Positions 18,521 through 39,557 of a stretch of DNA of 41,516 nt are shown one piece after another. A program made the position numbers and the translations under genes. How positions within the stretch are numbered: the first letter of the stretch is position 1; every line of letters begins with the position of its first letter. Origin of the DNA: Roseomonas mucosa (GTDB lineage: Bacteria > Pseudomonadota > Alphaproteobacteria > Acetobacterales > Acetobacteraceae); the NCBI GenBank assembly GCA_945878375.1, contig CAMDWG010000024.1:1-41516 (forward strand), in the 5' to 3' direction. Under the pieces are notes generated by a model. That model searched no databases. It saw nothing but the letters and a program-made list of their open reading frames with translations, and was not told the origin of the DNA.

Positions 18521-18521
18521 C

Positions 18522-22552: not shown

Positions 22553-23344
22553 CTAGCCGATGATGCGCCGGCGCGCGGCGCCCGAGGCCTGTTCCACCGC
22601 GATCACCAGCAACAGGATCGCGAGGATGGCCGCAGAGGCCTCCGCGTAATTGAACAGGTCCATCGACACCTTGAGCTCCATCCCGATGCCGCCCGCGCCG
22701 ACCAGGCCGAGCACCACGCCGCCGCGCGTTGCCTTCTCAAGACAGAACAGGCTGGTGGTGACCATGGACGGCATGGCGGCCGGCAGCACCGCCGCCATGA
22801 GCACGCCCATCCGGGGCGCGCCGGCCGCGGCCAGCGCTTCCTGCGGTCCCTTCTCCTGTTCTTCCATCGCATCGGCGAAGAAGCGCGCGGCATAGCCCAT
22901 CGTGTCCACCATGAGCGCCAGCGTGCCCGCGAAAGGGCCGAGGCCCACCGCCACCACGAAGATCAAGGCCCAAACGATGTCCGGCACGGTCCGGAAGACA
23001 GCGATCAGCGACCGCGCCGCCATCCGCAGCGGCCAGGATGCGGTAAGGGAGCGGCAGGCCAGCACCGCAAGCGGCACCGAGAGCAACACGCCGAGAACGG
23101 TCCCCGCGAGGGCCATGTGGAACGTCTCGAGCAGGGAGGAGAAAACGCGGTCCCAGCGATCATGGGAGGGTGGGATCATCTCGCCCAGGATGCGCGTCAT
23201 TTGCGGCAGGCCGGCGACAAGCTCGGAGATGGAGAATCCCACCCCCTGGAAGGAGGAAACGACCAGCGCCGCCGCGGCGACCAGTATGGCGAAGGCGATC
23301 GCCGAGGGGCGTTCGAGGCGGGGGGGCGCCGGGCGCTCAGTCAA
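22553..23344 (-). CDS. phnE: PhnE-type ABC permease (system 3)
   Basis: A 263-residue permease. The start chosen is TTG at 23344, which has GGAG at 7-nt spacing and overlaps the phnC stop; another TTG at 23383 would give a longer overlap. Membrane segments begin near residue 15 (SAIAFAILVAAAALVVS). The coupling segment is GPQEALAAAGAPRMGVLMAA and the hallmark is LGLVGAGGIGMELK. FRTVPDIVWALIFVVAVGLGPFAG is typical of PhnE. Last gene of the D-C-E operon. Confidence 0.85.
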   Translation of the reverse strand: MTERPAPPRLERPSAIAFAILVAAAALVVSSFQGVGFSISELVAGLPQMTRILGEMIPPSHDRWDRVFSSLLETFHMALAGTVLGVLLSVPLAVLACRSLTASWPLRMAARSLIAVFRTVPDIVWALIFVVAVGLGPFAGTLALMVDTMGYAARFFADAMEEQEKGPQEALAAAGAPRMGVLMAAVLPAAMPSMVTTSLFCLEKATRGGVVLGLVGAGGIGMELKVSMDLFNYAEASAAILAILLLVIAVEQASGAARRRIIG

Positions 23345-24122
23345 AGAACCGCTCCAGTTCCTCAGGTCTTGCAGCACCGGCAACCGAATCGAGCGCGACG
23401 GCGCCGGCGCGCAGCCCGACGATGCGATCGGCGAAGTGCAGCGCGTGCTCCATGTGGTGGGTGGTGAACAGGACGGTGATGTTGCGCTGGCGGGCGAGAT
23501 CGGCCAGCAGCGCCATCACCTCTCGGCCCGCGACGGGGTCGAGAGAGGCCACGGGTTCATCGGCCAGGATCAGGTCGGGCCGCTGCATCAGGGCCCGCGC
23601 GATGGCGACGCGCTGCGACTGTCCGCCGGACAGCGCATCGGCGCGCCTCAGGGCGATTGCGGCCAGCCCGACCTCATCCAGGCAGTGCATGGCTTCGGCA
23701 CGCAGGGTGTCGGGGGCCAGCAATTGGTGCCAAGCCCTCGCATGCGCGCGGGCGATCGCACCATGCGTCACATTCGACAGCGCGGACAGGCGCGGCACGA
23801 GGTTGTGGCGCTGAAAGACGAAGCCGACCCGCGCGCGGAGCCGGCGGAGGTCTCGCCCGCGCAATCGTCCCGGATCCTGTCCCAAGACCTGAACCGCGCC
23901 GCGATCCGGTTCCACGAGGCGCAAGAGGCAGCGCAGCAGCGTCGACTTCCCCGCGCCATTGGCCCCGATCAGCGCACACAATTCGCCACGCGGGACACGC
24001 AGCGCGACGCCCCGCAGGACATCCGTGGCGCCGAAGCGCTTCGTCAGCCCCACGACGTCGATGTCGTGGAGGCCGCCCCGCAGCTGCGACGGGGCGGCCT
24101 CGACCTGGAGTGCAGCGCTCAA
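23337..24122 (-). CDS. phnC: PhnC-type ABC transporter ATP-binding protein (system 3)
   Basis: An ATPase of about 261 residues. It begins at TTG 24122 overlapping the phnD stop (TTGA); the first 20 or so residues (before DIDVVGLTKRFG) have no family counterpart, so an internal start is possible. Walker A GANGAGKST, Q-loop FVFQRHNLVPRLSALSNV, signature [15 protein letters not shown], Walker [14 protein letters not shown] and switch LFTTHHMEHA are intact. Its GANGAGKS loop and LSGGQS signature set it apart from the PhnC of systems 1 and 2. Confidence 0.86.
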   Translation of the reverse strand: MSAALQVEAAPSQLRGGLHDIDVVGLTKRFGATDVLRGVALRVPRGELCALIGANGAGKSTLLRCLLRLVEPDRGAVQVLGQDPGRLRGRDLRRLRARVGFVFQRHNLVPRLSALSNVTHGAIARAHARAWHQLLAPDTLRAEAMHCLDEVGLAAIALRRADALSGGQSQRVAIARALMQRPDLILADEPVASLDPVAGREVMALLADLARQRNITVLFTTHHMEHALHFADRIVGLRAGAVALDSVAGAARPEELERFFD

Positions 24123-24991
24123 TTGCCGACGAAGTCGGAGAATTGCGGCTGGCCGATCGTGCGGTACATCGCCCGCACATAGTTGTAATCGGCATCGCGC
24201 GGCGCCGGAAGGAAGACGCCACCGACATACTTCTGGTTGTTGTTCGTGGCCGTCAGCGCGCGCCACATATCGGCGGAGTTGTCGACGAAGAGGCGCCGAA
24301 CCGCATCCACCGTCTCGGCCGGAACATGCGTGCCCGCCACCATCACATCGTCCGGCAGGTCGCGCCCGCGGCCAATCACCCGAAGGGTCAGGTCCGGGAA
24401 GCGCTGGCGGAACTGCACGATGTCGGTGTGATTGACGCCGAGCGCCGCGATATCGCCCCGGCGCAGCCCCTCGATCGCGACATTGCGGGCCACGTGCACC
24501 GCCTGGATGTCGCGTCGCGGATCAACGCCCAGATCCGCCAGGACCTGCATCGGACCGAGGTGACGGCTGGTCGAGCCGACATCGCCGAAGGCCACGCGCC
24601 GGCCACGCAGATCGGCCGCCACCTGGAACTCGCTGCGGGCGAGGACAACGATGTTGGAGAAGTAGTCGGGACGCTGGAAGGTCACCACCGGCACCGCGTT
24701 GGTCCGCTGGCGGAAGACGACGTATTCCGCCGGGCCCGTCAGCACGAAATCCACGCGCCGGGCGTTGAGCGCCTCGACAGCCGCGGTGCGGCTGCTCACC
24801 GCGAAGAAGCGCAGCTCGGCCCCCGAAAGGCGCTGGAACGCGTCGCGGAACGGACCGAAATCGCGCTGCACTTCCTCGAGCCCCGGGACATCCGTGATCG
24901 CCAGGGAAATGCTGCGCGGCTGCGCCGCGAGCTTAACCATGGGCAGGGCGGAAAGCGCCAGGGCGGCGCCGAGAACAGCACGACGATTCAT
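24119..24991 (-). CDS. phnD: PhnD-family ABC substrate-binding protein (system 3)
   Basis: A 290-residue periplasmic protein with a short signal peptide (MNRRAVLGAALALSALPMVKLAAQ). The PhnD-like core includes FVLTGPAEYVVFRQR and the oxyanion-binding STS motif in FGDVGSTSRHLGPMQVL, where Arg replaces the usual Gly after STS. This gene is more divergent than the first two PhnD genes. It is transcribed away from the phosphonate monoester hydrolase gene, with 335 nt between them, so the two units may share control. Confidence 0.83.
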   Translation of the reverse strand: MNRRAVLGAALALSALPMVKLAAQPRSISLAITDVPGLEEVQRDFGPFRDAFQRLSGAELRFFAVSSRTAAVEALNARRVDFVLTGPAEYVVFRQRTNAVPVVTFQRPDYFSNIVVLARSEFQVAADLRGRRVAFGDVGSTSRHLGPMQVLADLGVDPRRDIQAVHVARNVAIEGLRRGDIAALGVNHTDIVQFRQRFPDLTLRVIGRGRDLPDDVMVAGTHVPAETVDAVRRLFVDNSADMWRALTATNNNQKYVGGVFLPAPRDADYNYVRAMYRTIGQPQFSDFVGN

Positions 24992-25326
24992 GTGAAGAGG
25001 TCTTCCTTGCTGGAGCCAACAGGCGCTTAGGGGTTTTCTGTAGCCGTTGAGTGACTGGCCCGAGAATCTTCCATGGCAGCTTGCAGGTGCCGCGTCAGAT
25101 GATGGGCGGGAGCATGCCATCGGTGACGGCACGACCGACAGCGGAGCGCGAGCCACCCCGCATGGATGCTGCGAGAGCGTGCCGCGGGATCGAGCCGATC
25201 CAAGCGGCATCGGACGGGGGGCGCCCGCCCGGTGCGGCGAAGGGTGTCACGCAGGATCAGCGAAAGCGCCACACGTTTGTCGCCGCCCAAGGCTAAGACC
25301 GCGCACGGAAATTTCGGACCAGTGGA
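24992..25326. other. 335-nt divergent intergenic region between phnD (system 3) and the hydrolase operon
   Basis: No convincing gene: short frames on both strands lack family features and ribosome binding sites. Promoters for both divergent units should lie here. I could not pick clear -35/-10 boxes or a Pho box. GGAAATTTCGGACCAGTGGA precedes the hydrolase ATG, and no strong Shine-Dalgarno is seen. Confidence 0.5.
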
Positions 25327-26880
25327 ATGGCACGCAAGAACGTCCTGCTTATCGTCGTCGATCAATGGCGTGCCGATTTCGTCCCCGCCCTCGGGGCCGG
25401 CTTCCTGCGCACGCCGAATCTCGATCGCCTCTGCCGCGAGGGCGTGACCTTCCGGAACCATGTGACCAACGCGGTCCCTTGCGGTCCTGCGCGCGCAAGC
25501 CTGCTGACAGGGCTCTACCTGATGAATCATCGGGCGGTGCAGAACACGGTGCCGCTCGATGCGCGGCACACCAATCTCGGCAAGCAGCTGCGGCTGATCG
25601 GCTATGATGCCGCGCTGATCGGCTACACGACGACGACGCCCGATCCCCGCACCACCGGTCCCCGCGACCCGCGCTTCACCACCCTCGGCGACCTGATGGA
25701 TGGCTTCCGCAGCGTCGGCGCCTTCGAGCCGAACATGGATGGCTATTTCGGCTGGCTCGCCCATCAGGGCTACAAGCTGCCGCCCCGGCGCGAGGATATC
25801 TGGCTCCCGGAAGGCGAGGACGCGGTGCCCGGCGTGACGGATCGGCCCTGCCGCATCCCGAAGGACCTCTCGGACAGCACCTTCTTCACCGAACGTGCGC
25901 TGGCCTATCTGAAGGGCCGGGGCGACAAGCCGTGGTTCCTGCATCTGGGCTATTACCGGCCCCATCCGCCCTTCATCGCCCCGGCCCCATACCACGCCAT
26001 GTATGCGCCGGCCGACATGCCCGCGCCGATCCGCCAGCCACGCTGGGAAGATGAGGCGGCTCAGCATCCTCTCATGGAGTTCTACCTCCGCGGTATCAGC
26101 CAGGGCAGCTTCTTCCGTGGCGCCGGCGGTGCCGCAACCGCGCTGGAGGAAGCCGCGATCCGCCAGATGCGCGCCACCTATGCGGGCCTCATCACCGAGA
26201 TCGACGACTGCCTCGGCCGGGTCTTCGCGTATCTCGAGGAGACCGGGCAGTGGGAGGAGACGATGATCGTCTTCACCTCCGACCATGGCGAGCAGCTCGG
26301 CGATCATTGGCTGCTCGGGAAGGTCGGCTTCCATGACGAAAGCTTCCGCATCCCCCTGGTGGTGAAGGATGCCGGGCGCAGCCCACGCGCCGGCGCGATC
26401 GAGGACGCCTTCACCGAATCCGTCGACGTGATGCCGACCATCCTGCAGGCATTGGGCGGCTCCGCGCCACGGTCCAGCGATGGCCGGTCCATCCTGCCGC
26501 TGCTGGATGGGCCGCCGCCGGCCGATTGGCGCGATGCGCTGTTCTACGAATACGACTTCCGCGACGTGCATTACTCGCGCCCCGAAGCCGCGCTCGGCCT
26601 TGGCATGGATGAGAGCGCGCTCTGCGTCCTGCAGGATGCCCGCTACAAGTATGTGCATTTCGCGGCGCTGCCCCCGCTGTTCTTCGACCTCGCGCGCGAT
26701 CCGCACTGCTTCGAGAACCTGGCCGAGGACCCGGCGCATGCGGCGCTGGTCAGGGACTACGCTCAGAAGGCGCTTTCGAAGCGGATGCGCCATGCCGAGC
26801 GCACGCTGACCCATTTCCGCGCGACACCCCAGGGGCTGGAGGAGCGCGATGTCGCCTCCACCGCGCCCGCCGCCGATTGA
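25327..26880 (+). CDS. Phosphonate monoester hydrolase/phosphodiesterase (alkaline phosphatase superfamily, formylglycine enzyme)
   Basis: A 517-residue enzyme that cleaves phosphonate monoesters and phosphodiesters, as known for the R. leguminosarum and B. caryophylli PMHs, which are also promiscuous sulfatases. The formylglycine signature C-x-P-x-R is Cys52 in PCGPARASLLTG. From memory of the characterised R. leguminosarum PMH, the active site is matched with a constant shift of five: Asp12, Gln13, Cys52, Asn73, Tyr100, Thr102, His213, Asp319, His320 and Lys332. The DQWRAD start is also diagnostic. There is no signal peptide, so it acts in the cytoplasm on imported esters. It needs a formylglycine-generating enzyme not seen here. 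The stop is 19 nt before the first of four binding proteins, so it leads their operon. Confidence 0.92.
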   Translation: MARKNVLLIVVDQWRADFVPALGAGFLRTPNLDRLCREGVTFRNHVTNAVPCGPARASLLTGLYLMNHRAVQNTVPLDARHTNLGKQLRLIGYDAALIGYTTTTPDPRTTGPRDPRFTTLGDLMDGFRSVGAFEPNMDGYFGWLAHQGYKLPPRREDIWLPEGEDAVPGVTDRPCRIPKDLSDSTFFTERALAYLKGRGDKPWFLHLGYYRPHPPFIAPAPYHAMYAPADMPAPIRQPRWEDEAAQHPLMEFYLRGISQGSFFRGAGGAATALEEAAIRQMRATYAGLITEIDDCLGRVFAYLEETGQWEETMIVFTSDHGEQLGDHWLLGKVGFHDESFRIPLVVKDAGRSPRAGAIEDAFTESVDVMPTILQALGGSAPRSSDGRSILPLLDGPPPADWRDALFYEYDFRDVHYSRPEAALGLGMDESALCVLQDARYKYVHFAALPPLFFDLARDPHCFENLAEDPAHAALVRDYAQKALSKRMRHAERTLTHFRATPQGLEERDVASTAPAAD

Positions 26881-26899
26881 ACCCGAAGGAGCCACCGCC

Positions 26900-28516
26900 A
26901 TGATCCGTCGTCGTCACATCCTGGCCGCCCCGGCTGCGGCCCTGCTGCCGGCCCCTGCCCTCGGCCAGGCCGACAACCGCCCCTCCATCACCATCGCCGT
27001 GCAGAAGGTGGTGAACAGCAACACGCTCGAAGTGCTGCGCGAGCAGTCGAATGTGGGCGAGCGGGTCTTCTACAGCAGCCTGTGGGAGGGGCTGATCGGG
27101 CGCAACTGGCTCGGCACGCTGGAAAGCGTCCCGAGCCTGGCCACCGAATGGCGCCGGATCGACGACCGCACCGTGGAACTGAAGCTGCGACAGGGCGTGC
27201 GCTTCCACAATGGCGACGAGATGACGGCCGATGACGTCGTCTTCTCCTTCGGCGCCGAGCGCATGTTCGGCACCGGCAGCACCCAGGCGCAGGGCCAGCT
27301 GTTCGCGCGCATTCCGGGCCAGGGCTTCCAGGGCAAGGAACTGCCGGCGGAAGTGGTGGCCGTGGCGCGCCGCAACTGGCCGGCGATCGAGAAGGTGGAG
27401 GCGATCGACAAATACACGGTCCGCTTCGTCAACCGCACGCCGGACGTGACACTGGAAGGCCGTCTGGCGCGCTATGGCAGCGACATCTGCTCGCGCCGCG
27501 GCTTCGCCGAAGCCGCCACTTGGCTGGACTGGGCGCGCAAGCCCATCACCACCGGCCCCTACATGGTGGCGGAATTCCGCCCCGACGTGTCGCTGACCCT
27601 GGTGGCGCACGACCAGTATTGGGGTGGGCGGCCGCCGCTGCGCCAGATCCGCTTCGTCGAGGTGCCGGAAGTCGCCAGCCGCATCAATGGCCTGCTCTCC
27701 GGCCAGTATCAGTTCGCCTGCGACATCCCGCCCGACCAGATTGCCGCCATCGAGCGCAACCGCGCCTTCGAGGTCCAGGGCGGCACCATCCTCAACCACC
27801 GCCTGACGGTGTTCGACAAGAACCACCCGGTGCTGCGCGATGCGCGCATCCGCCGCGCCATGACGCACAGCATCGACCGGCAGGCGATCGTCGACAGCCT
27901 CTGGGCCGGCCGCACCGTGGTGCCGAAGGGTCTGCAATGGGACTATTACGGCCAGATGTTCCACTCCGACTGGTCGGTGCCCGCCTTCGACCTGGCCGAG
28001 GCGCGCCGCCTGCTGCGTGAGGCGAATTATCGCGGCGAGCCGATCCCCTATCGCCTGCTGTCCAACTACTACACCAACCAGAACGCCACCGCGCAGATCC
28101 TGGTGGAGATGTGGCGCGCCGCCGGGCTGAACGTGCAGATCAATGTGGTGGAGAACTGGGCCCAGATCTTCTCGCGCGAGACCCCGCGCGCGGTGCGCGA
28201 CTGGTCGAACAGCGCGCCCTTCAACGACCCCGTCTCCTCCATCGTCAACCAGCATGGCCCGAACGGCCAGCAGCAGCAGGTGGGCGAATGGACGAATGAG
28301 GAGTTCAACCGCCTGTCGGGCGAACTCGAGACCAGCACCGACCGCGCCCGCCGCCGCGCGGTGTTCCGCCGCATGCTGGAAATCGCCGAGCGCGAGGACC
28401 CCGCCTACACCGTGCTGCACCAGAACGCGACCTTCACGGCCAAGCGCCGCGACACCGCGTGGAAGGCGAGCCCGGCCTTCGCGATGGACTTCACGCCCGG
28501 CAATTTCGGGAGCTGA
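26900..28516 (+). CDS. Family-5 (Dpp/Opp type) ABC substrate-binding protein, copy 1 of 4
   Basis: A 538-residue periplasmic binding protein. The ATG at 26900 has AAGGAG 8 nt upstream and opens a signal peptide (MIRRRHILAAPAAALLPAPALGQA). SBP_bac_5 landmarks: GVRFHNGDEMTADDVVFSF, TTGPYMVAEFRPD, RIRRAMTHSIDRQAIV, and WTNEEFNRLSGELE. It shares with the three following proteins the phrases LREQSNVG and NYYTNQ and the ARRLLREANYRGEPIPYR block, showing tandem duplication. Ligand unknown: peptides are usual for the family, but nickel, heme, glutathione or other compounds occur. Confidence 0.88.
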   Translation: MIRRRHILAAPAAALLPAPALGQADNRPSITIAVQKVVNSNTLEVLREQSNVGERVFYSSLWEGLIGRNWLGTLESVPSLATEWRRIDDRTVELKLRQGVRFHNGDEMTADDVVFSFGAERMFGTGSTQAQGQLFARIPGQGFQGKELPAEVVAVARRNWPAIEKVEAIDKYTVRFVNRTPDVTLEGRLARYGSDICSRRGFAEAATWLDWARKPITTGPYMVAEFRPDVSLTLVAHDQYWGGRPPLRQIRFVEVPEVASRINGLLSGQYQFACDIPPDQIAAIERNRAFEVQGGTILNHRLTVFDKNHPVLRDARIRRAMTHSIDRQAIVDSLWAGRTVVPKGLQWDYYGQMFHSDWSVPAFDLAEARRLLREANYRGEPIPYRLLSNYYTNQNATAQILVEMWRAAGLNVQINVVENWAQIFSRETPRAVRDWSNSAPFNDPVSSIVNQHGPNGQQQQVGEWTNEEFNRLSGELETSTDRARRRAVFRRMLEIAEREDPAYTVLHQNATFTAKRRDTAWKASPAFAMDFTPGNFGS

Positions 28517-28520
28517 GCCC

Positions 28521-30089
28521 ATGCTGCGCCGCCGCAACCTGATCGCCGCGGCGCTGCTGCCTGCGCCGGCGCTGGCGCAGGCCGACCATCGCCCGGTGAT
28601 CACCATCGCCGTGCAGAAGATCTCCACCGCCGGCACGCTCGACATCATCCGCGAGGCGAGCAATGTCGGCACCCGCTGGTACAACCTGTACAAGGAACCG
28701 CTGATCGACACGGCCTGGACCGGCGACCTGTCGCTGCGCCCGGGCCTGGCCGAAACTTGGCGACGGATCGACGATCGCACGGTCGAGGTGGATCTGCGGG
28801 CCGGCGTGCGCTTCCATGACGGGCGCGAGATGACGGCCGAGGATGTGGCCTTCACCTTCGGCCCCGACCGCATGTTCGGTCGCGCCGGGCTGACCGGCCC
28901 CGCCGCCCCGCCGCCCGAGGCGGTGGCCGGCGCGCGCGGCACCTTCCCCGCCTTCGACAAGGTCGAGATCCTGGGCCGCCACAAGCTGCGCTGGGTGAAC
29001 CGGGCCGGCGACGTCACGCTGGAGGGACGCCTGTCGCACCGCGCGGGCTGCATCCTGCCGGCGCACGCCTTCTCCGCCGCCGGCGGCTGGACAGGCTTCT
29101 TCGCACGGCCCATCGGCACCGGGCCGTTCCGCGTGGTGGATTGGCGGCTCGACAATCGCCTGGTGCTGCAGGCCTTCGACGATTACTGGGGCGGCCGGCC
29201 GCCGGTGCGTGAAATCCGCTTCCTGGAGGTGCCCGAACTGGCTTCGCGCCTGAACGGGCTGTACGCCGGCGAGTATGATTTCGCCTGCGACATCACCCCC
29301 GACCAGATCGCGGTGATCGAACGCAACCCCCGCTTCGAGGTGGCGGGCGGCGTGATCATGAACCATCGCGTCACGCACATGGACGCGACGCACCCGGTGC
29401 TGGCCAACCCGCTGGTGCGCCGCGCGCTGACCCATGCGGTGGACCGCAACGCCATCGTGCAGAGCCTGTGGGCCGGCCGCACGGCGGTGCCGCCCGGGCT
29501 GCAATTCGGCTTCTTCGGCCAGATGCTGCGCAGCGGTTGGCAGCCCCCCGCCTTCGACCTGGCCGAGGCGCGCCGCCTGCTGCGCGAGGCGAACTACCGC
29601 GGCGAGCCGATCCCCTACCGGATGCTGAACAACTACTACACGAACCAGACCGCGACCGGGCAGATCCAGCTGGAGATGTGGCGCGCCGCGGGGCTGAACG
29701 TGCAGCTGCAGATGGTCGAGAACTGGGCGCAGGTGCAGGCGCGCGGCCCCGGGCGCGGGCTGTTCGAACATTCGGTCACCGCCTTCTTCAACGACCCCGT
29801 CTCCTTCGTCCCCACCACCTATGGGCCGCAGGGCAGCATGCAGCGCGGCGGCTACTGGACGAATGCCGAGTTCAACCGCCTGGTGCCGGAACTCGAGACA
29901 TCGACCGATCGCGCCCGCCGCGCCGCCGTCTGGGCGCGGATGCTGGCGATCATGGAGCGCGAGGATCCGGTGGTGAACGTGATCCACCAGACCGCGAACT
30001 TCACCGCCAAGCGGCGCGACATACGCTGGCGCCCCGCCCAGTCCTTCGTGATGGATTTCCGCGCCGCCAACTTCGCGCTCGGCGCCTGA
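28521..30089 (+). CDS. Family-5 ABC substrate-binding protein, copy 2 of 4
   Basis: A 522-residue paralog of the preceding protein, starting 4 nt after its stop. Signal peptide MLRRRNLIAAALLPAPALAQA. Conserved landmarks are GVRFHDGREMTAEDVAFTF, GTGPFRVVDWRLD, LVRRALTHAVDRNAIV, NNYYTNQTATGQIQLEMW and WTNAEFNRLVPELE. It is shorter than copy 1 in the region after the FGPDRMFG segment, where copies 1 and 4 have an insertion. The N-terminal ligand-pocket part (EASNVGTRWYNLYKEPL) differs most from the others, suggesting a different ligand preference. Confidence 0.88.
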   Translation: MLRRRNLIAAALLPAPALAQADHRPVITIAVQKISTAGTLDIIREASNVGTRWYNLYKEPLIDTAWTGDLSLRPGLAETWRRIDDRTVEVDLRAGVRFHDGREMTAEDVAFTFGPDRMFGRAGLTGPAAPPPEAVAGARGTFPAFDKVEILGRHKLRWVNRAGDVTLEGRLSHRAGCILPAHAFSAAGGWTGFFARPIGTGPFRVVDWRLDNRLVLQAFDDYWGGRPPVREIRFLEVPELASRLNGLYAGEYDFACDITPDQIAVIERNPRFEVAGGVIMNHRVTHMDATHPVLANPLVRRALTHAVDRNAIVQSLWAGRTAVPPGLQFGFFGQMLRSGWQPPAFDLAEARRLLREANYRGEPIPYRMLNNYYTNQTATGQIQLEMWRAAGLNVQLQMVENWAQVQARGPGRGLFEHSVTAFFNDPVSFVPTTYGPQGSMQRGGYWTNAEFNRLVPELETSTDRARRAAVWARMLAIMEREDPVVNVIHQTANFTAKRRDIRWRPAQSFVMDFRAANFALGA

Positions 30090-30107
30090 GGGATCGAGGA
30101 TCGCCCC

Positions 30108-31673
30108 ATGACACTCCCCCGCCGCGCCCTCCTCGCCGCGCCCGCCGCGGGGCTGCTCCCCGCGCCCGCGATCGCGCAGGCCGATGCCCGCCCGCAGGTG
30201 ACGGTGGCGGTGCAGGACATCAGCACCTCGAACACGCTCGAGATGCTGCGCGAACAGTCCAATGTCGGCACGCGCATCTTCCGCAACTTCGTGGAACCGC
30301 TGGTCGATACGGACTGGAACGGCGACATGTCGCTGATGCCGGGCCTCGCCACCGGCTGGCGGCAGATCGACCAGGTGACGGTGGAATTCGACCTGCGGCC
30401 GGGCGTCACCTTCCATGACGGCCAGCCCTTCACGGCCGAGGATGTCGCCTTCTCCTTCGGGGCGGAGCGCATGTGGGGCGGCGGCAGCCGCGAGGTGCCG
30501 GCCGTGGTGCCGCAGGCCGCCCGCCAGGCCTTCCCGGCCTTCGCCCGGATCGAGGTGGTGGGGCCGCACCGGGTGCGCCTGGTCAATAGCCGGCCCGACC
30601 CGGTGCAGGTGGGCCGCATGGCGCGCAGCATCGCGGTGATCGCGCCGCGCGGCGCCTTCATGGCCGCCCCGTCCTGGCTGGAATGGGCGCGCCGGCCGGT
30701 TGGCACGGGCCCGTACCGCATCGCCGAATTCCGCCCCGACCAGTCGCTGGTGATGGAACCGCATGACGCGCACTGGCAGGGCCGCCCGCCGCTGCGCCGC
30801 CTGCGCTTCCTGGAGGTGCCGGAAGTGGCCTCCCGCGTGAACATGCTGTTCTCGGGCGAGGCGGCCTTCGCCTCGGAGATCCCGCCCGACCAGATCGCCA
30901 GCATCGAGGCCGATCGCCGCTTCGAGGTGGTGGGCGGGCCGATCAACAATACCCGCTACCTGGTGTTCAACCAGGCGCATCCGGTGCTGGCGGACCCGCT
31001 GGTGCGCCGCGCGATGAGCCATGCGATCGACCGCGAGGCGATCATCGCGGCGCTCTGGGCCGGACGCACCAGCGTGCCGCGCGGGCTGCAATGGGAATTC
31101 TACGGCGCCTTCCACCTGGCCGATGTCGCGGTGCCGCGCTTCGACCCGGCCGAGGCGCGGCGCCTGCTGCGGGAAGCGGGCTATCGCGGCCAGCCCATCC
31201 CCTATCGCTGCCTGAACAACTACTACACCAACCAGACCGCGACGGCGCAGATCATGGTCGAGGGCTGGCGCGCCGCCGGGCTGAACGTGCAGCTGCAGAT
31301 GGTCGAGAATTGGGGCCAGATCCTGGGCGGCGAGGCGACCAGCCGCGGCGTGCATGACTGGTCGGCCGCCGCCGTGGTGCCCGACCCCTCGGTGCAGATG
31401 AGCGGCAGCTGGGGCCCGAACAGCGCGGTGTGGCGGCGCAACCAGTGGCGCAACGCCGAATTCGCCGCGCTGTCCGACGAGTTCGAAAGCAGCCTCGACC
31501 AGCCGCGCCGCCTGCAGATCTGGCGCCGCATGCTGCAGATCATCGAGCGCGAGGACCCAGCCTACGCGGTGTTGCACCGCAATGCCAGCTTCACCGCGAA
31601 GCGGCGCGACATCGCCTGGCGCGCCTCGCAGAGCTTCTTCATGGATTTCCGCGCCAGCAACTGGGGAGCCTGA
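30108..31673 (+). CDS. Family-5 ABC substrate-binding protein, copy 3 of 4
   Basis: A 521-residue periplasmic paralog. GAGG precedes the ATG at 30108. Signal peptide MTLPRRALLAAPAAGLLPAPAIAQA. Shares EMLREQSNVGTRIF, GVTFHDGQPFTAEDVAFSF, GTGPYRIAEFRPDQS, LVRRAMSHAIDREAII and CLNNYYTNQTATAQIMV with its neighbours. The stretch after NRTPD in copies 1 and 4 is changed here (NSRPDPVQVGRMARS). The ASEIPPDQIA segment replaces the ACDIPPDQIA wording, losing a Cys kept in the other three copies. Confidence 0.88.
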   Translation: MTLPRRALLAAPAAGLLPAPAIAQADARPQVTVAVQDISTSNTLEMLREQSNVGTRIFRNFVEPLVDTDWNGDMSLMPGLATGWRQIDQVTVEFDLRPGVTFHDGQPFTAEDVAFSFGAERMWGGGSREVPAVVPQAARQAFPAFARIEVVGPHRVRLVNSRPDPVQVGRMARSIAVIAPRGAFMAAPSWLEWARRPVGTGPYRIAEFRPDQSLVMEPHDAHWQGRPPLRRLRFLEVPEVASRVNMLFSGEAAFASEIPPDQIASIEADRRFEVVGGPINNTRYLVFNQAHPVLADPLVRRAMSHAIDREAIIAALWAGRTSVPRGLQWEFYGAFHLADVAVPRFDPAEARRLLREAGYRGQPIPYRCLNNYYTNQTATAQIMVEGWRAAGLNVQLQMVENWGQILGGEATSRGVHDWSAAAVVPDPSVQMSGSWGPNSAVWRRNQWRNAEFAALSDEFESSLDQPRRLQIWRRMLQIIEREDPAYAVLHRNASFTAKRRDIAWRASQSFFMDFRASNWGA

Positions 31674-31676
31674 GCC

Positions 31677-33281
31677 ATGCGCATCACCCGCCGAGCCACC
31701 ATCCTGGCGCCGACCCTGCTGGCCGCGCCGGCGCTGGCGCAGGCCGACCAGCGCCCGACCCTGACCATCGCGGTGCAGCGCCTGTCCAACTCCAACACCT
31801 TCGAACCGCCGCGGGAGCAGTCGAATGTCGGCTTCCGCCTGCACGGCCTCTACGCGGAACAGCTGATCGGCACCGACTGGCTGAACAATGCCGCCCTGGT
31901 GCCGGGCCTCGCCACCGAGTGGCGCCGGGTCGATGCGCGCACGCTCGACCTCAGGCTGCGCCCGGGCGTCCGCTTCCATGACGGCAGCGAACTCACGGCC
32001 GAGGATGTGGTGTTCTCCTTCCGCGAAAGGCTGTTCGGCACGCAGGGCGCGACGGGCGCCGGCCGGTCGACCGTGCTCGCCGGGACGGCGGGCAAGGAGC
32101 CACCGGCGGAGGTGGTGGCCGTCGGCCGCCGCACCTATCCGGGGCTGGACCGGATCGAGGTGCTGGACCGCCACACGGTCCGCTTCGTCAACCGCACCCC
32201 GGATGTGACGCTGGAGGGGCGGATCGCGCAGAGCGTCGGCGCCATCCTCTCCCGCTCCGCGTTCGAACGCGCCGAAAGCTGGCTCGGCTGGGGCCGCGCG
32301 CCGGTGGGCACGGGGCCGTATCGCATCGCCGAGTTCCGCCCGGACACGGTTTTGGTCCTCGAAGCCCATGATGCCTATTGGGGCGGCCTGCCGCCGGCAC
32401 GGCGGCTGCGCTTCGTCGAGGTGCCGGAAGTCTCCGGCCGGCTGAACGGGCTGTTCTCTGGCGAGTTCGACTTCGCCTGCGACGTGCCGCCCGACCAGAT
32501 CCCGGTGGTGGAGCGCAATGCCCGCTTCGAGGTGCTGGGCAGCCCGATCAACAACATCCGGAAACTGGCCTTCGACAAGACGCATCCGGTGCTGGCCGAT
32601 GCCCGCATCCGCCGCGCCATGACGCATGCGATCGACCGGCAGGTGCTGGTGGACGCGCTCTGGGCCGGGCGCACGCGAATCCCGCGCGGCATGCAGATGG
32701 AAAGCTATGGCCAGATGTACCTGGCCGATTGGGAGAACCCCCGCTTCGACCCGGCAGAGGCGCGACGCCTGCTGCGCGAGGCGAACTACCAGGGTCAGCC
32801 GATCCCCTATCGCCTGCTGAACAACTACTACACCAACCAGGTGGCCAACGCGCAGATCATGGTTGAGATGTGGCGCGCCGTCGGGCTGAACGTGCCCATC
32901 GAGATGAAGGAGAATTTCTCCCAGGTCACCGAACGCACGGCGGGCCGCGGCGTGCGCGATTGGTCCAACACCTCGGTCTTCGGCGATCCGGTGGCCGGCG
33001 TGCTGCGCGGCTATGGCCCGCGCACCGAGGCCGAGCGCACCGGCGAGTGGGCCAGCGAGGCGTTCAACCAAGTCTCCACCGCGCTGGAGGCCGAGACCGA
33101 CATCGCCCGCCGTCGCGACCTGTTCCGCCGCATCCTGACGATCCTGGAACGCGAGGATCCGGGCTACATCACGCTGCACCACGCGGCGGCCTTCACGGCG
33201 AAGCGGCGGGACATCGCCTGGCGCGCTTCCTCGGGCTGGGCGATGGTGTTCGGCCCCGGCAACCTTCGGGTCGGCGCGTGA
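31677..33281 (+). CDS. Family-5 ABC substrate-binding protein, copy 4 of 4
   Basis: A 534-residue periplasmic paralog starting 3 nt after copy 3. Signal peptide MRITRRATILAPTLLAAPALAQA. Landmarks are GVRFHDGSELTAEDVVFSF, VNRTPDVTLEGRIAQS, GTGPYRIAEFRPD, RIRRAMTHAIDRQVLV and LLNNYYTNQVANAQIMVEMW. The conserved LREQSNVG reads PPREQSNVG here. Like copy 1 it keeps the insertion before EVVAVGRR, so copies 1 and 4 look closest. Its stop overlaps the GTG of the ATPase gene, coupling it directly to the transporter. Confidence 0.88.
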   Translation: MRITRRATILAPTLLAAPALAQADQRPTLTIAVQRLSNSNTFEPPREQSNVGFRLHGLYAEQLIGTDWLNNAALVPGLATEWRRVDARTLDLRLRPGVRFHDGSELTAEDVVFSFRERLFGTQGATGAGRSTVLAGTAGKEPPAEVVAVGRRTYPGLDRIEVLDRHTVRFVNRTPDVTLEGRIAQSVGAILSRSAFERAESWLGWGRAPVGTGPYRIAEFRPDTVLVLEAHDAYWGGLPPARRLRFVEVPEVSGRLNGLFSGEFDFACDVPPDQIPVVERNARFEVLGSPINNIRKLAFDKTHPVLADARIRRAMTHAIDRQVLVDALWAGRTRIPRGMQMESYGQMYLADWENPRFDPAEARRLLREANYQGQPIPYRLLNNYYTNQVANAQIMVEMWRAVGLNVPIEMKENFSQVTERTAGRGVRDWSNTSVFGDPVAGVLRGYGPRTEAERTGEWASEAFNQVSTALEAETDIARRRDLFRRILTILEREDPGYITLHHAAAFTAKRRDIAWRASSGWAMVFGPGNLRVGA

Positions 33282-34255
33282 GCACGCTGGTCGCGCTCCG
33301 CGGCCTCAAGGTCTCCTTCGCCGGGCAGCCGGCGCTGCGGGGGATCGATCTGCGCGTTGCGCCCGGCGAGGCGCTCGGCCTGGTCGGCGAATCGGGCTGC
33401 GGCAAGTCCGTCACCTGGCTGGCCGCGCTCGGCCTGCTGCCCGCCCAGGCGCGGATCGAGGGCAGCGTCACGCTCGGCGGCGAGGAATTGATCGGCGCGC
33501 CAGCCAGCGTGCTGGAACGGGTGCGCGGCCGGCGGATCGCCATGATCTTCCAGGACCCGGCCAGCAGCCTGAACCCGGTGCATCGCGTGGGTCGGCAGAT
33601 TACGGAGGCACTCGCGCTGCACCGCGGGCTGACCGGCGGGGCGGCGCGCGCCGAGGCGAAGCGCCTGCTCGACCTGGTCGGCATCCCCGACGCAGCGCGG
33701 CGGCTGGATGCCTATCCGCACGAATTCTCGGGCGGGCAGAACCAGCGCGTGATGATCGCCATGGCGCTGGCTGGCCAGCCGGAGATGCTGGTGGCCGACG
33801 AGCCGACCACCGCGCTCGACGTGACGATCCAGGCGCAGATCCTCGACCTGCTGGGCAGCCTGAGGCGCGACTTCAACATGGCGCTGGTGCTCATCAGCCA
33901 TGATCTGGGCGTGGTGGCAGAAACCTGTGACCGGGTCGCGGTGATGTATGCCGGGCGCATCGTCGAGGAAGCGCCGGTGGCGCGGCTGTTCGACCACCCG
34001 GCGCATCCCTATACGCGCGGCCTGCTCGGCGCGCTGCCGCCGATCACCGGGCCGCGCCGGCGGCTGGCCGCGATCCCGGGCGGCGTGCCGGAACCCTGGG
34101 CAATGCCGAAGGGCTGCGCCTTCGCGCCGCGCTGCGGCGCGCGGGTCGACGCCTGCGAGGCGGGCGTCCCGGCCAGCACGGAACTCGTCCCCTTCCATGT
34201 CGCGGCGTGCCTGCGCGCCGATGAACCGGCTGCCCTGGAGATGGAACCGGCATGA
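33278..34255 (+). CDS. dppD: Dipeptide/oligopeptide-type ABC transporter ATPase (DppD-like)
   Basis: A 325-residue ATPase starting at a GTG that overlaps the stop of the fourth binding protein (GTGA). Walker [10 protein letters not shown]-loop [20 protein letters not shown], signature [15 protein letters not shown], Walker [14 protein letters not shown] and switch [13 protein letters not shown] are complete. The C-terminal oligopeptide-transporter domain with [12 protein letters not shown] and the Cys-bearing GCAFAPRC motif is present. First half of the ATPase pair. The symbol is by family; the cargo is not proven to be dipeptide. Confidence 0.86.
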
Positions 34256-35250
34256 GGCCCGACACACCGCTGCTGCAAGCAACGGGCCTCGTGCGCCGCT
34301 ATGAGATGCGTCGCGGCATCTTCGGCAGCCCGGTGGAGGTGCGCGCCGTCGATGGCGTGTCGCTGACGCTGGAGCGCGGCCGCACTCTGGGCCTGGTGGG
34401 AGAATCGGGCTGTGGCAAGTCCACAACCGGTCGGCTGGTGCTGGGCCTTGAGACGCCGGATGCGGGCAGCATCGCCTTCGAGGGCAAGCCGATGCCGCCG
34501 CCCGGCGGCGCACCCTGGCGGTCGCTGCGCGCGCGCATGCAGATGGTGTTCCAGGACCCGCTCGGTGCGCTGGACCGCCGCGTGACCATCGGCGCGCAAG
34601 TGCGCGAGCCACTCGACATCCACCAGATCGGCGACGCTCCGGCGCGCGTCGAGAAGGTCACGCGGTTGCTGGCCGCGGTCGGGCTGCGGCCGGACCAGGC
34701 GGCGCGCTACCCGCATGAACTGTCGGGCGGCCAGCGGCAGCGCGCCGTGCTGGCCCGGGCGCTGGCCACTGACCCCGCCCTGCTGGTGTGCGACGAGCCG
34801 ATCAGCGCGCTCGACGTCTCGATCCAGGCGCAGGTGATGAACCTGATGTTGGACCTCCAGGCGGAATTCGGGGTGGGAATGCTGTTCATCAGCCATGACC
34901 TGCGCGCGGTGCGGCAGGTGAGCCAGCGGGTCGCGGTCATGTATCTCGGCCGGATCGTCGAGGAAGGTGAGCCGGACGCGGTGCTGCACGCCCCTGCCCA
35001 CCCTTATTCGCAGGCGTTGGTGTCGGCCATCCCGCATCCGGGCAAGCAGGGGACTCGGATCGTTCTGCAGGGCGACCCGCCGAACCCGGCGGACCGGCCC
35101 TCGGGCTGCGCCTTCCATCCGCGCTGCGCCGCCGCCGTGGCGCGCTGCCGCGCCGAAAGCCCGGACCTGAAGGCGCGGCCCGACGGACGCCTGGTTGCCT
35201 GTCATGTCGCGCATGGCGAAGCCGAAACCGCCTTGCCGAGGGCCGCTTGA
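34252..35250 (+). CDS. dppF: Dipeptide/oligopeptide-type ABC transporter ATPase (DppF-like)
   Basis: A 332-residue ATPase, second of the pair, overlapping DppD by 4 nt. Walker [14 protein letters not shown]-loop [20 protein letters not shown], signature [15 protein letters not shown], Walker [14 protein letters not shown] and switch [13 protein letters not shown] are intact. The N-terminal [19 protein letters not shown] and the C-terminal [12 protein letters not shown] and GCAFHPRC motifs are typical of OppF/DppF. Its TGA overlaps the ATG of the permease that follows. Confidence 0.86.
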
Positions 35251-36188
35251 TGCTGCGCTTCGTCGCTTCCCGCCTGCTGCGCGCGGCGATCACCATCGTG
35301 ATGGTCGTCACCTTCGCCTTCGTGGTGCTGCGCCTGTCGGGCGATCCGGCGCAGATCATCATGGGCGCCGACGCGCCGCCCGAGGCGGTGGATGCGTTCC
35401 GCACCGCCTGGGGGCTCGATCAGCCGGTATGGCTGCAATATTTCCACTATTTCGGCGCGATCCTCTCGGGCGATCTCGGCCGGTCGATGCGCGACGGCCG
35501 GGACGCGATTGTGCTGGTGGTGGAACGGATCCCGGCGACGCTGGCGCTGACACTTCCGGCGCTGGCCATCAAGCTCGGGCTCGGCATTCCGGCCGGCATC
35601 TATGCCGCGCTGCACCGCGACTCACCGATCGACCGGACGCTGATGATCCTGGCCGTCGCGGGCTTCACGGTGCCCTCCTTCGTGCTCGGCCTCCTGCTGG
35701 TGCTGGTGTTCGCGGTGCAACTCGGCTGGCTGCCCTCGGGCGGGCAGGAAAGCTGGCGGCATGCGATCCTGCCCGTTGTCACGCTCGGCATCGGCGGTGC
35801 CGCGGTGCTGGCGCGCTTCACCCGCAGCGCCATGCTGGAAGTGCTGGGCCAGCCATACATCCGCACCGCCAGCGCCAAGGGCGTGACCTGGCGCAACGTG
35901 GTCTGGGGCCATGCGCTGCCGAATGCAGCGATCCCCACCGTGACCATCGTGGGCTTCATGGTCGGCAGCCTGATCGCCGGCGCGGTGGTGGTGGAGAGCG
36001 TCTTCTCCTGGCCCGGCGTCGGGCGGCTGCTGGTGGTGGCGGTGGCCAACCGCGACCTCGCCGTCGTGCAGTGTGTCCTGCTGCTGGTGGCGATAACCAT
36101 GGTGGCGGCCAACCTGACGGTCGATCTGCTCTATGGCGCGCTGGATCCCCGGCTGCGCACCGGCGCGCGCAAGAGCGGGGCCCATTGA
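35250..36188 (+). CDS. dppB: Dipeptide/oligopeptide-type ABC permease (DppB-like)
   Basis: A 312-residue inner-membrane permease with six membrane segments. The ATG at 35250 overlaps the DppF stop by one base; a TTG three bases earlier would add one residue. Family features: N-terminal FVASRLLRAAITIVMVVTFAFVVLRLSGDPA, the ARFTRSAMLEVLGQPYIRTASAKG coupling region and LPNAAIPTVTIVGFMVG. The order D-F-B-C (ATPases before permeases) is less common than B-C-D-F. Confidence 0.88.
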   Translation: MLRFVASRLLRAAITIVMVVTFAFVVLRLSGDPAQIIMGADAPPEAVDAFRTAWGLDQPVWLQYFHYFGAILSGDLGRSMRDGRDAIVLVVERIPATLALTLPALAIKLGLGIPAGIYAALHRDSPIDRTLMILAVAGFTVPSFVLGLLLVLVFAVQLGWLPSGGQESWRHAILPVVTLGIGGAAVLARFTRSAMLEVLGQPYIRTASAKGVTWRNVVWGHALPNAAIPTVTIVGFMVGSLIAGAVVVESVFSWPGVGRLLVVAVANRDLAVVQCVLLLVAITMVAANLTVDLLYGALDPRLRTGARKSGAH

Positions 36189-36190
36189 AG

Positions 36191-37063
36191 ATGCCGGAAG
36201 CCCCCTTGCCCGCGAGTCTGGCGCCGCCGCGCGCCCGGCGGCCGCTGCCGCCGCCCCTGGTCATCTTCGGCCTGACCTGGCTCGGCCTGATGCTGGCGGT
36301 GGCGATCCTGGCGGATCTGGTCAGTCCCTACAGCTACACGGCGCTCGATTTGCGCAATCGGCTCTCACCGCCGGTTGCGTTCGGCGGCACATGGCTGCAT
36401 CCGCTCGGTACCGACGAACTTGGCCGCGACGTGCTGGCGCGGCTGATCTATTCCATTCGCACGAGCCTGCTGATCGCCTTCGGCGCCACCATCATCGGCG
36501 CGCTGATCGGCACCAGCCTCGGCTTCCTCGCGGCGCATTTCCGCGGGCTGGTTGAGCAGGCTGTCCTGGCGCTCGTGGATTTCTCGGCGAGCCTGCCATT
36601 CCTGATCCTGGCGCTGGCGGTGCTTGCCTTCTTCGGCAATTCGATGGTGCTGTTCGTCTGCCTGCTCGGGCTGCATGCCTGGGAACGCTATGCGCGCATC
36701 GCACGCGGCCTTGCGATCTCGGCCGGCGCGCAGGGGTATGCGGCGGCGGTGCGGCAGCTCGGCGCCACCCCCTGGCGGATCTATGGGCGCCATGTGCTGC
36801 CGAACATCGCGTCCACCCTCATCGTCTCGATGACCTTGGCCTTCCCGGAGGTCATCCTGTTGGAAAGCGGCCTGTCCTTCCTCGGGCTCGGCGTGCAACC
36901 GCCAGAGACCTCGCTCGGCTCCATGGTCGGCTATGGGCGGGAATACCTCACCCGTGCCCCTTGGATCCTGCTGGCTCCCGCGTCCGTCATCGTCCTGACC
37001 ACCCTTTCGGTCTCCCTGATCGGCGATTGGCTGAGGGACCGTCTGGACCCCACGCTACGCTGA
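36191..37063 (+). CDS. dppC: Dipeptide/oligopeptide-type ABC permease (DppC-like)
   Basis: A 290-residue permease with six membrane segments, starting at the ATG 2 nt after the DppB stop. Features of the family: WLHPLGTDELGRDVLARLIY ahead of the first periplasmic domain, the coupling region AAVRQLGATPWRIYGRHVLPN, and ESGLSFLGLGVQPPETSLGSM at the C-terminal end. It completes one transporter serving the four upstream binding proteins. Confidence 0.88.
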   Translation: MPEAPLPASLAPPRARRPLPPPLVIFGLTWLGLMLAVAILADLVSPYSYTALDLRNRLSPPVAFGGTWLHPLGTDELGRDVLARLIYSIRTSLLIAFGATIIGALIGTSLGFLAAHFRGLVEQAVLALVDFSASLPFLILALAVLAFFGNSMVLFVCLLGLHAWERYARIARGLAISAGAQGYAAAVRQLGATPWRIYGRHVLPNIASTLIVSMTLAFPEVILLESGLSFLGLGVQPPETSLGSMVGYGREYLTRAPWILLAPASVIVLTTLSVSLIGDWLRDRLDPTLR

Positions 37064-37074
37064 GCCGGGCCGGA

Positions 37075-37104
37075 GACCCGTGGGCGCACGCGCCCGGCGG
37101 GGTC
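37075..37104 (+). terminator. GC-rich hairpin after dppC
   Basis: GACCC (37075-37079) pairs with GGGTC (37100-37104), and inside them GGGCG (37082-37086) pairs exactly with CGCCC (37091-37095) around a CACG loop. A CTTCTG stretch follows rather than a T run, so this could be a weak terminator, attenuator or mRNA-stability element between dppC and the downstream hydrolase. Confidence 0.35.
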
Positions 37105-37135
37105 CTTCTGCTCGCATACGACAAAGGCGCCAAAG

Positions 37136-38560
37136 ATGCCCCGTTTCGTCCTGATCGCGCTCGATGGCCTGCGGCCCGACATGATCTCCCCGCAGGCGAC
37201 GCCGCATCTCGCCGCGCTGGCCGCGGCAGGGACGCGCTTCGCCAATGCGCGCAGCGTCTTTCCATCCGAGACGCGCGTCGCAACGCCGTCGCTGGTTACC
37301 GGCTGCCGGCCCGGCGGGCACGGGATGGTGGCGAATACCCTGTTCGACCGTTCTGTCTCACCGGACCGGCTGCTCCGGACCAAGCTGGTCGCGGATGTCT
37401 TGGCGATGGCGCAGGGGCGTGAATCGCCATTGCTGAAACCAACGCTCGGCGAGCGGCTGGCCGAGGCCGGCCTGTCCTTCGCGCTGGTCAGCGCGGGCAC
37501 GGCCGGCGCGGCGCAGCTTCTGCATCCGGCTGCCGAGCGGCTCGGCCTGTTCCGCTGGAATGTCGAGGACATCGCGGGCCCGACGGCGGCGCTGATGCAG
37601 GACCGCTTCGGCCCGACCCCGCCCCAGGCCGTGCCGAACCTGCCCCGCCTTCGCCACACCGCGCGCGTCCTGCTGGAGCATGTCCTGCCGGAGCGCCGGC
37701 CCGACGTGACACTCGTCTGGCTGTCGGAACCGGACATCTCCTTCCACTGGGGCGGGCTTCTGGCGCCGCATTCGCGGGAGGCGCTGCGCGCGGCCGATGC
37801 CTTCCTCGGTGAGGTCGTCGCCTGGCGCGATGCGCAGCCCGACGCGGCGGAGATCGTGCTGGTGGTGCTGTCCGACCACGGCCATGTCACGGGCCGAGGC
37901 AAGCTCTCGCTGGCGGCGGAGTTGAACCGTGCGGGCTTCCGGGCGGGCACCGGGCTGTCGCCCGATGTGGATGTCGTGGTCGCGCCCGCGGCCGCGCCGG
38001 GTCTTTGGTTCCGCGATGTCGGACTTGCGCCGCAGGTGGCAACATGGCTGGCGTCGCAGCCCTGGTGCGGGCCGCTGCTGGCACGCGATCCGACGATCCT
38101 GCCCGATGGGATGGCACTTCCCCTCTCGCTGCTGGGCAGCGGCCACGCGCGCAGCGCGGACCTCGTGGTCACATTCGCTGGCAGCGAGGCCGCCGACGAA
38201 TGGGGCCTGCCCGGCCACGCGCCCTTCGACGCGCCGGATGTGCCGGAGGGTGGCGGCATGCATGGCGGCCTGCACCGAGCGGAACTCGCGACCGTGCTGG
38301 TCATGGACGGGGGGCCGCTGCGGCGTGGCGCCGTCGTCGAGGCGCCATGCGACCTGACGGACATCGCGCCGACCGTCCTGCATCTGCTCGGCCTTGGCTT
38401 GGATGGCATCGAAGGGCGCGCCTTGCACGAGGCCTGGAACGCGGCCGCCGACGCTCCGCCCTCTCCTGAAGCGGTGAGGCTGGCGCGGGGCTTCGTGTTG
38501 GACGTGATGCGCCCGGCCGCGGGCGGCAGGCTTTACCCAACCGCCCTACGGCGCACCTGA
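37136..38560 (+). CDS. Alkaline phosphatase superfamily hydrolase (nucleotide pyrophosphatase/phosphonoacetate hydrolase-like)
   Basis: A 474-residue enzyme of the type I phosphodiesterase/nucleotide pyrophosphatase group. Metal ligands are recognisable: Asp10 in LIALDGLRPD, Asp200 and His204 in EPDISFHWGG, Asp247-His248 in LSDHGH, and a late His in GGMHGGLHRAE. The nucleophile is probably Thr46 in SETRVATPSLVTG, at the same distance from the TG as in the PhnA-type T-x-P...TG motif. No signal peptide, so cytoplasmic. It lies 73 nt after dppC on the same strand and probably shares that operon, which also starts with a superfamily member. Substrate could be a phosphodiester, nucleotide or phosphonate. 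Confidence 0.85.
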   Translation: MPRFVLIALDGLRPDMISPQATPHLAALAAAGTRFANARSVFPSETRVATPSLVTGCRPGGHGMVANTLFDRSVSPDRLLRTKLVADVLAMAQGRESPLLKPTLGERLAEAGLSFALVSAGTAGAAQLLHPAAERLGLFRWNVEDIAGPTAALMQDRFGPTPPQAVPNLPRLRHTARVLLEHVLPERRPDVTLVWLSEPDISFHWGGLLAPHSREALRAADAFLGEVVAWRDAQPDAAEIVLVVLSDHGHVTGRGKLSLAAELNRAGFRAGTGLSPDVDVVVAPAAAPGLWFRDVGLAPQVATWLASQPWCGPLLARDPTILPDGMALPLSLLGSGHARSADLVVTFAGSEAADEWGLPGHAPFDAPDVPEGGGMHGGLHRAELATVLVMDGGPLRRGAVVEAPCDLTDIAPTVLHLLGLGLDGIEGRALHEAWNAAADAPPSPEAVRLARGFVLDVMRPAAGGRLYPTALRRT

Positions 38561-38681: not shown

Positions 38682-39557
38682 CTAGTGGGCGATCACAGCC
38701 GCACCTGCTCCAGAGCTAATCTGCGACCTGGCCATTGGCACCGTCTCCGGGGCAGGCGGGCGGTAGCCTAGTGACGCGTGCGGCCGGACCCGGTTGTAAT
38801 GCCGGCGCCAATCCTCGATCGGCACCTGGGCTTCACGGAGTGTGTTGAACACCTCGCCGTTCAGCAGATCGTCCGGCAGCTTGCCGTTGAAGCTCTCTAC
38901 GAAGCCGTTCTCCCACGGGCTCGCCTTCTCGATGTAGGCCGTCTGCGACCCGACACCGGGGATCCACGTCTTCACCGCATCCACGATGAACTCCGGCCCC
39001 TGGTCCGAGCGGATGTGCGTCGGCGTCCCATGCGCGACAAACAGGTCAGCCAGCGCATCGATCACGTCCGACGACGAGAGCTTCCGCGCCACCCGGATCG
39101 CCAGCGCCTCGCGCGTGAACTCGTCCACCACGCACAGCATCCGGAACCTCCGCCCGTCCCGGGTCCGATCCTCGACAAAGTCATAGGCCCAGACGTGGTT
39201 GCCACGCTCCGGCCGCAGCCGCACGCAGGACCCGTCGGCCAGCCACAGCCTGCCGCGCTTCGGCTGCCGCTGCGGCACCTTCAGACCCTCGCGACGCCAG
39301 ATCCGCTCGACGCGCTTCCGGTTCACCGACCAGCCCGCATCCCGCAGCAACGCCGTGATCCGCCGATAGTCATACCGCCCGTAGCGCTTCGCCAACTCAA
39401 CAATGTCCGCCGTCAGCGGCGCCTCGTCGTCCGGTCCTCGAGGCACCTACCGCTGCGTCGATCTGTGCTGCCCCAGCACCGCGCAGGCCTTGCGCTCCGA
39501 TACGCCGAGCTCGCGCACGACGGGCTCGACGCAGGCCCGCCGCCGCGCGGGGCTCAC
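38682..39557 (-). pseudogene. IS3-family transposase OrfB, interrupted by an in-frame amber codon
   Basis: The frame begins at GTG 39557, overlapping the OrfA stop, and encodes VSPARRRACVEP... as in IS407-group OrfB. At codon 37 (39447-39449) a TAG follows GQHRSTQR, where relatives usually have a Tyr or another sense codon; a single base change (TAC to TAG) would explain it. The rest is open to 38682 and holds the HTH_21 and integrase-core DDE domain: Asp in WAYDFVED, Asp in IRSDQGPEF, and Glu in ENGFVESFNGKL. Translation could restart at GTG 39446 and make a 254-residue protein lacking the N-terminal part. Unless the amber is read through, a full OrfB or OrfAB product is not made. Confidence 0.8.

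Follow-up and report, generated by a model that had tools for sequence, protein, structure and literature searches.

A four-receptor Dpp-type transport operon in Roseomonas mucosa as a probable import-and-cleave system for organophosphorus esters

The stretch of DNA analyzed here (the window: 41,516 nt, contig CAMDWG010000024.1 of the Roseomonas mucosa assembly GCA_945878375.1) carries an operon in which two hydrolase genes flank four receptor genes and one Dpp-type ATP-binding cassette (ABC) transporter, and which probably serves to import and cleave organophosphorus esters. Ten intact open reading frames (ORFs) lie head to tail on the plus strand at 25327-38560. The first one encodes a PehA-type phosphonate monoester hydrolase/phosphodiesterase (PMH; 25327..26880). 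It is followed by four AccA-type receptors of family PF00496, namely SBP1 (26900..28516), SBP2 (28521..30089), SBP3 (30108..31673) and SBP4 (31677..33281), the latter one adjoining DppD. The transporter consists of the ATPases DppD (33278..34255, with a GTG start and a 4-nt overlap with SBP4) and DppF (34252..35250), which both match PF00005 and PF08352 (oligo_HPY), and the permeases DppB (35250..36188; PF00528 (BPD_transp_1) and BPD_transp_1_N) and DppC (36191..37063; PF00528 and OppC_N). An NPP-type phosphodiesterase (37136..38560) closes the run.

A sequence-only reading of the window, made without database searches, had described this arrangement, and both the families and the uninterrupted run on one strand held up. 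The first four gaps were also as it had reported: 19 nt (PMH-SBP1), 4 nt (SBP1-SBP2), 18 nt (SBP2-SBP3) and 3 nt (SBP3-SBP4). Next come overlaps of -4 (SBP4-DppD), -4 (DppD-DppF) and -1 (DppF-DppB), and 2 nt between DppB and DppC. Only the distance to the second hydrolase had to be corrected from 73 to 72 nt. This plus-strand gap (37064..37135) folds to -31.5 kcal/mol, a raw value without shuffle control.

The product of the first gene scores 957 bits with the PehA equivalog model NF045661 (cut-off 900), and its best PDB matches are the PMHs 2vqr (RlPMH, Rhizobium) and 2w8s (Burkholderia). Its translation contains the CxPxR formylglycine motif as VPCGPAR, and two FGE-sulfatase (PF03781) matches over the cut-off in the genome are possible formylglycine maturases. 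PMHs are a much-used model of enzyme promiscuity. In the literature searched (open-licence papers only), we found neither a statement on the natural PMH substrate nor a paper tying a PMH to an importer. The second hydrolase matches PF01663 with 104.8 bits (gathering cut-off 23). Its residues D10, T46, D200, H204, D247, H248 and H376, which we take to be the catalytic metal and nucleophile residues, are invariant in 13 aligned NPP sequences. As judged by eye from the translations, no signal peptide is apparent in either hydrolase, whereas the receptors have arginine-containing signal sequences (arginine-rich in SBP1), so that the esters would be cut after import. PMH paralogs with 43-48% identity to the window PMH also occur in the loci L184, L185 and L186, near opposite-strand PhnT-like genes; PhnS/PhnUV-like genes are present in two of these, and the Dpp-type transporter is not found there.

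By sequence and predicted fold, the nearest solved receptor to SBP1-4 is AccA, the receptor for agrocinopine, a sugar phosphodiester. The phosphate/OH anchor of AccA consists of N54, N284, Y375, Y376 and S419 (AccA numbering). We aligned 140 receptors of relatives, leaving out seven fragments of less than 400 residues and loci repeating named ones. The complete anchor is present in all four window receptors and in 139 of the 140 relatives, but in none of the 22 other family-5 receptors of the genome. The remainder of the pocket varies from paralog to paralog. The sugar-binding Glu510 of AccA is replaced in SBP1-4 by F, F, F and W, and neither tryptophan of the gate is kept, with Y, R, S and S standing at W178 and P, F, V and V at W423. 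Two further receptors of the window's genome, in L188 (G000:C44) and L154 (G000:C20), have four of the five anchor residues. The first of them is AccA-like, with W178, T430 and E510 as in AccA, and its locus (531-6037) continues with a separate DppD-F-B-C set and a transposase; the second is another family-5 receptor. A PDB title names AccA mutants at positions 145 and 440; our alignment at residue 145 is unsure.

To determine how widely this arrangement occurs, we scanned named genomes with the PMH protein, which gave 127 loci, and used the best 80 of these. In 72 of the 80, PMH stands together with DppD and one or more receptors on one strand, so their linkage is not due to chance. Five of the eight exceptions are short, cut or end in the first receptor (L041, L044, L062, L063, L093), and L068, with six receptors, breaks off ahead of DppD. 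We also chose 20 stretches from other families of the class. Among the ten with a PMH of at least 742 bits, five have the same transporter with one receptor, PMH being the last gene in three of them; the other five include L175 (cut by the contig) and L177 (a different Dpp-type set). The operon's receptor was found in none of the ten stretches with weaker PMH paralogs. The core PMH-receptor-DppDFBC operon is widespread in Alphaproteobacteria.

The number of receptors in front of DppD varies among the 72 loci. A single receptor is present in 30 loci, two in 33, three in eight and four in one; the counts for L052 (three) and L092 (two) each include two fragments of one gene. Four receptors are therefore unusual. 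In the genus of the window we counted 2 (G095), 3 (G231), 4 (window), 5 (G195) and 6 (G152), with G262 not included and G287 without a strong PMH match. In a quick maximum-likelihood tree of 145 rows, SBP1 belongs to a clade of 77, which as a rule contains the first receptor after PMH, including the single receptors of Rhizobiales loci; exceptions are the second of six receptors in L068 and a receptor before PMH in L082. SBP4 falls into a clade of 24 with the last position, next to DppD. The clades of SBP2 (three rows, the other members being from L068 and L132) and SBP3 (six rows) are small, and a further clade of 19 is absent from the window. Among labelled receptors the clade order 1-2-3-5-4 is never broken, while some receptors fall into no named clade. 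The first of the six receptors in L068 (Falsiroseomonas selenitidurans) is 43% identical to SBP4, precedes a clade-1 receptor and sits on a very long branch.

Receptor number goes along with the second hydrolase. PMH and DppC are both present in 67 loci, and for this comparison we used the 54 of them that extend at least 1.5 kb beyond DppC. Among the multi-receptor loci, 23 of 28 have an NPP gene next to DppC, compared with 0 of 26 loci with a single receptor. Several kinds of NPP are involved (68-80% or 34-38% identity to the window NPP), 12 of them codirectional and 11 convergent; in eight of nine codirectional relatives of the closer kind, the gap to DppC is 4-24 nt, compared with 72 nt in the window. 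In L059 and L043 the NPP gene follows DppC at about 0.3 and 2.2 kb, respectively. All five multi-receptor exceptions have an NPP of at least 544 bits further off in the genome. Of the 21 genomes searched for the 26 single-receptor loci, one has an NPP that strong, five carry weaker matches (312-427 bits) and 15 lack one. Another 13 multi-receptor loci were too short for this assessment; an NPP of at least 676 bits is present in eight of their genomes, a weaker NPP containing an in-frame stop in two, and none in three.

We then looked for a link to phosphorus in the upstream regions, using the PHO box consensus given in a passage of PMC3131613. Upstream of PMH, the mean best match is 9.87 of 14 positions, compared with 7.82 for resampled sequence and 7.7 for two control regions. 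In 40 of 71 non-redundant upstream regions (the window's included in the 71) the match reaches at least 10/14, and all of these matches start between -100 and -51. Two of 200 scrambled motifs score as high as the real one, whereby repeated letters can restore the same word.

Based on these observations, we consider it probable that the operon imports and cleaves organophosphorus compounds, either phosphodiesters or phosphonate esters, with cytoplasmic hydrolases and a range widened by extra receptors. The four periplasmic receptors would grip the phosphate or phosphonate ester group via the conserved anchor, and the rest of the ligand would be chosen by pocket residues that differ between the paralogs. 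All four would deliver to the single DppB-C-D-F transporter. The intact ester would enter the cytoplasm, where PMH, joined by the NPP-type enzyme in lineages with several receptors, would cut the ester bond, yielding an alcohol or sugar together with a phosphomonoester, phosphate or phosphonate. The ancestral form may have had one receptor and PMH; tandem duplication would have supplied further receptors, chiefly in Roseomonas-like Acetobacteraceae and along with the second hydrolase. In relatives, phosphate starvation probably induces the operon via PhoB. The view of the sequence-only reading, that one transporter is served by several receptors and tied to hydrolases, is supported, and its proposal that receptor duplication widened the ligand range is in agreement with pocket divergence and with the association of NPP and receptor number. 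Of its ligand guess, the phosphodiester part fits the AccA-like receptors with their phosphate anchor; phosphonopeptides find no support, the receptors being AccA-type and an aspartate matching DppA Asp408 being absent from all 140 relatives.

A narrower version, possible but doubtful in our view, is that the true substrates are phosphonate monoesters such as sugar or glycerol esters of alkylphosphonates. PMH would release the phosphonate from them, and C-P lyase would then extract its phosphorus. PMH owes its name to this activity, and the C-P lyase gene phnJ was found in 79 of 81 genomes of the family with a PMH match at E 1e-150 (60 of them over the PehA cut-off), covering 27 of 27 genera. 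Furthermore, in L042, L046 and L100 the NPP gene lies about 6 kb beyond DppC in convergent orientation, with PhnS- and PhnT-like genes in between. The available passages of a study on marine bacteria (PMC5649143) propose that PEH acts on phosphonate esters of polysaccharides. The same passages name phosphodiesters alongside phosphonate monoesters as PEH substrates and give phosphate esters as about 80% of the organic phosphorus in the polysaccharides studied, which speaks against this version, and so do the 82 of 218 family genomes that have PhnJ without a PMH match. In this case, the operon might supply the uptake and hydrolysis that have been missing for esterified phosphonates, namely alkylphosphonates esterified with sugars or polyols, which are known from dissolved organic matter; this is a role we judge unlikely. 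It would tentatively combine a constant phospho(n)ate clamp, variable side-group pockets, an expandable receptor set, PMH and NPP splitting different esters, and C-P lyase as the finishing step. If true, this would give the PMH family its natural role.

It is improbable that the extra receptors are redundant and serve only to increase dosage. They do stand in tandem within one operon, and the five genomes of the window's genus counted above have two to six copies. Nevertheless, the paralogs are old (54-60% mutual identity), their separate clades are kept in a fixed order, and the non-phosphate pocket columns, with the pocket split as published, diverge between paralogs beyond the average. A 'ring/gate' pocket set was discarded because it had been picked after seeing the variable columns and was hence circular.

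Since all transport parts belong to the Dpp/Opp superfamily, an ordinary oligopeptide or opine importer with the esterases as incidental neighbours also has to be considered, but we regard it as very unlikely. The linkage of PMH, receptor and DppD in 72 of 80 named loci, and in five of ten further other-family loci with high PMH scores, argues against it, as does the conserved AccA-type anchor. The DppA model NF043070 scores the window receptors at 71-87 bits (cut-off 1005). At the column of DppA Asp408, no aspartate occurs in the four window receptors or their 140 relatives, compared with five of 22 control receptors, seven of the 22 being gapped there; the column correspondence is given in a passage of PMC4526662. 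The peptide importer was rejected on pocket and model scores. Scavenging of sulfate esters or choline sulfate is the least probable explanation and hardly to be expected, because although PMH belongs to the sulfatase superfamily (PF00884) and acts on sulfate esters in vitro, relatives have PHO boxes, phosphonate-type transporters lie nearby, the receptors have the phosphate-contacting residues of AccA, and the choline-sulfatase model gives PMH only 176 bits (cut-off 433).

Several observations weigh against the organophosphorus import-and-cleave function that we favour. The hydrolysis of sulfate esters by PMH is one of them. L085 and L116 have a PMH with full flanks and lack the operon (2 of 80 loci). 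When all 18 named pocket residues are pooled, there is no excess divergence (p 0.48). Agrocinopines are unlikely ligands, given the Phe or Trp in place of Glu510 and the loss of the two gate tryptophans. L070 combines a single receptor with a strong NPP at another site of its genome, and L040, L073 and L083 have several receptors with no NPP match in the genome (E 1e-40). In a tree of PMH, DppB and DppC, receptor number and NPP change 7 and 8 times; seven independent pairs differ in NPP, of which about 4.6 go the same way and 0 the opposite way (median p 0.06), and the reverse pairing gave six pairs with 3.8 the same way (sign test, p 0.125). As the independent pairs never go the opposite way but the sign test is not significant, a coupling of receptor number and NPP is likely, not proven. 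The association of PhnJ with PMH is confounded by kinship. Finally, the region before PMH in the window reaches a PHO match of 7/14, which is chance level, and the four weak PHO hits at other sites of the window do not exceed chance either. Because of this chance-level upstream match, the regulation of the window operon may differ from that of its relatives.

The upstream part of the window (8760-25210) is dense in further organophosphorus-type ABC transport genes. These comprise PhnD-C-E-E with a metallophosphoesterase, then a PhnS-UV-T-like set. The minus strand encodes two PhnD-like receptors as well, together with parts resembling PhnC/PhnE and Ugp. Matches to one PhnC and three PhnE models exceed the cut-offs, and the PhnS-, PhnT- and Ugp-like matches lie below. 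PhnD/PhnE- or metallophosphoesterase-like genes are within the flanking stretch in 13 of the 80 named loci. Directly after the operon and near the contig end, a transposase (HTH_21, rve, rve_3), presumably of the IS3 type, is encoded on the minus strand at 38682-39446. Rfam (gathering scores) and tRNA searches of the window gave no matches, and nothing in a promoter and terminator scan of it exceeds shuffled sequences.

Parts of this arrangement are found in known systems, and the statement of the sequence-only reading that no described system has this architecture proved too strong, as the acc operon follows the same logic and the single-receptor form is widespread in Alphaproteobacteria, including around RlPMH. 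Like PhnCDE and PhnSTUV with C-P lyase, the operon is linked to organophosphorus uptake, with such genes as neighbours in the window and PhnJ in the same genomes, but the Phn transporters are of other families and the window operon is Dpp-type. In the Opp system of Borrelia, several receptors (five oligopeptide-binding proteins) likewise share one Opp-type transporter, whereas the ligands there are peptides. We know of no hydrolase in that system.

The pehA operon on pRL9 of Rhizobium johnstonii 3841, one of the 72 loci with the linked genes, has PehA, receptor, two ATPases and two permeases in the same order and on the same strand, but one receptor only. No NPP-type gene is annotated in this pRL9 stretch, and there was no NPP match in the R. 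johnstonii 3841 genome (E 1e-40). PehA of pRL9 and PDB 2vqr are identical in 513 of 514 residues, the crystal having Ala for the motif Cys, so that pRL9 is the genomic home of RlPMH; a literature search for pRL90232 found no paper. The RlPMH operon (L112 / L167) adjoins a carbohydrate ABC transporter, a sugar-phosphate isomerase/epimerase and a Gfo/Idh/MocA oxidoreductase, and these neighbours hint at a sugar or polyol as the alcohol that is released. What the AccA-type receptors bind, including the one beside RlPMH, could be a route to the substrates of PMHs. Together, these loci form a natural series in which the transporter is kept, the receptor set grows from a single one up to six and a second hydrolase is added, and offer a handle on how a phosphorus diet is widened.

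The closest parallel is the agrocinopine (acc) system of Agrobacterium with the receptor AccA, an ABC transporter and the phosphodiesterase AccF, as described in a part of PMC4526662. AccA is the nearest solved receptor to those of the window and has the same phosphate/OH anchor, and both systems combine receptor, transporter and a cytoplasmic phosphodiester hydrolase. AccF is a glycerophosphodiesterase and AccR a regulator; the transporter, with the gene letters AccBCDE, is presumably Dpp-like. In contrast, the place of AccF is taken by PMH and NPP in the window, the receptors are four in number, and both Glu510 and the gate tryptophans are replaced. No AccF- or AccR-like gene was found among the window genes scanned, and unscanned genes could hold one. 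Taken together, the window system would work like acc, as a phosphodiester importer with a cytoplasmic hydrolase, but would not be an agrocinopine system, because its receptors are multiplied and differ in the residues on the sugar side, and because PMH and NPP serve as its hydrolases.

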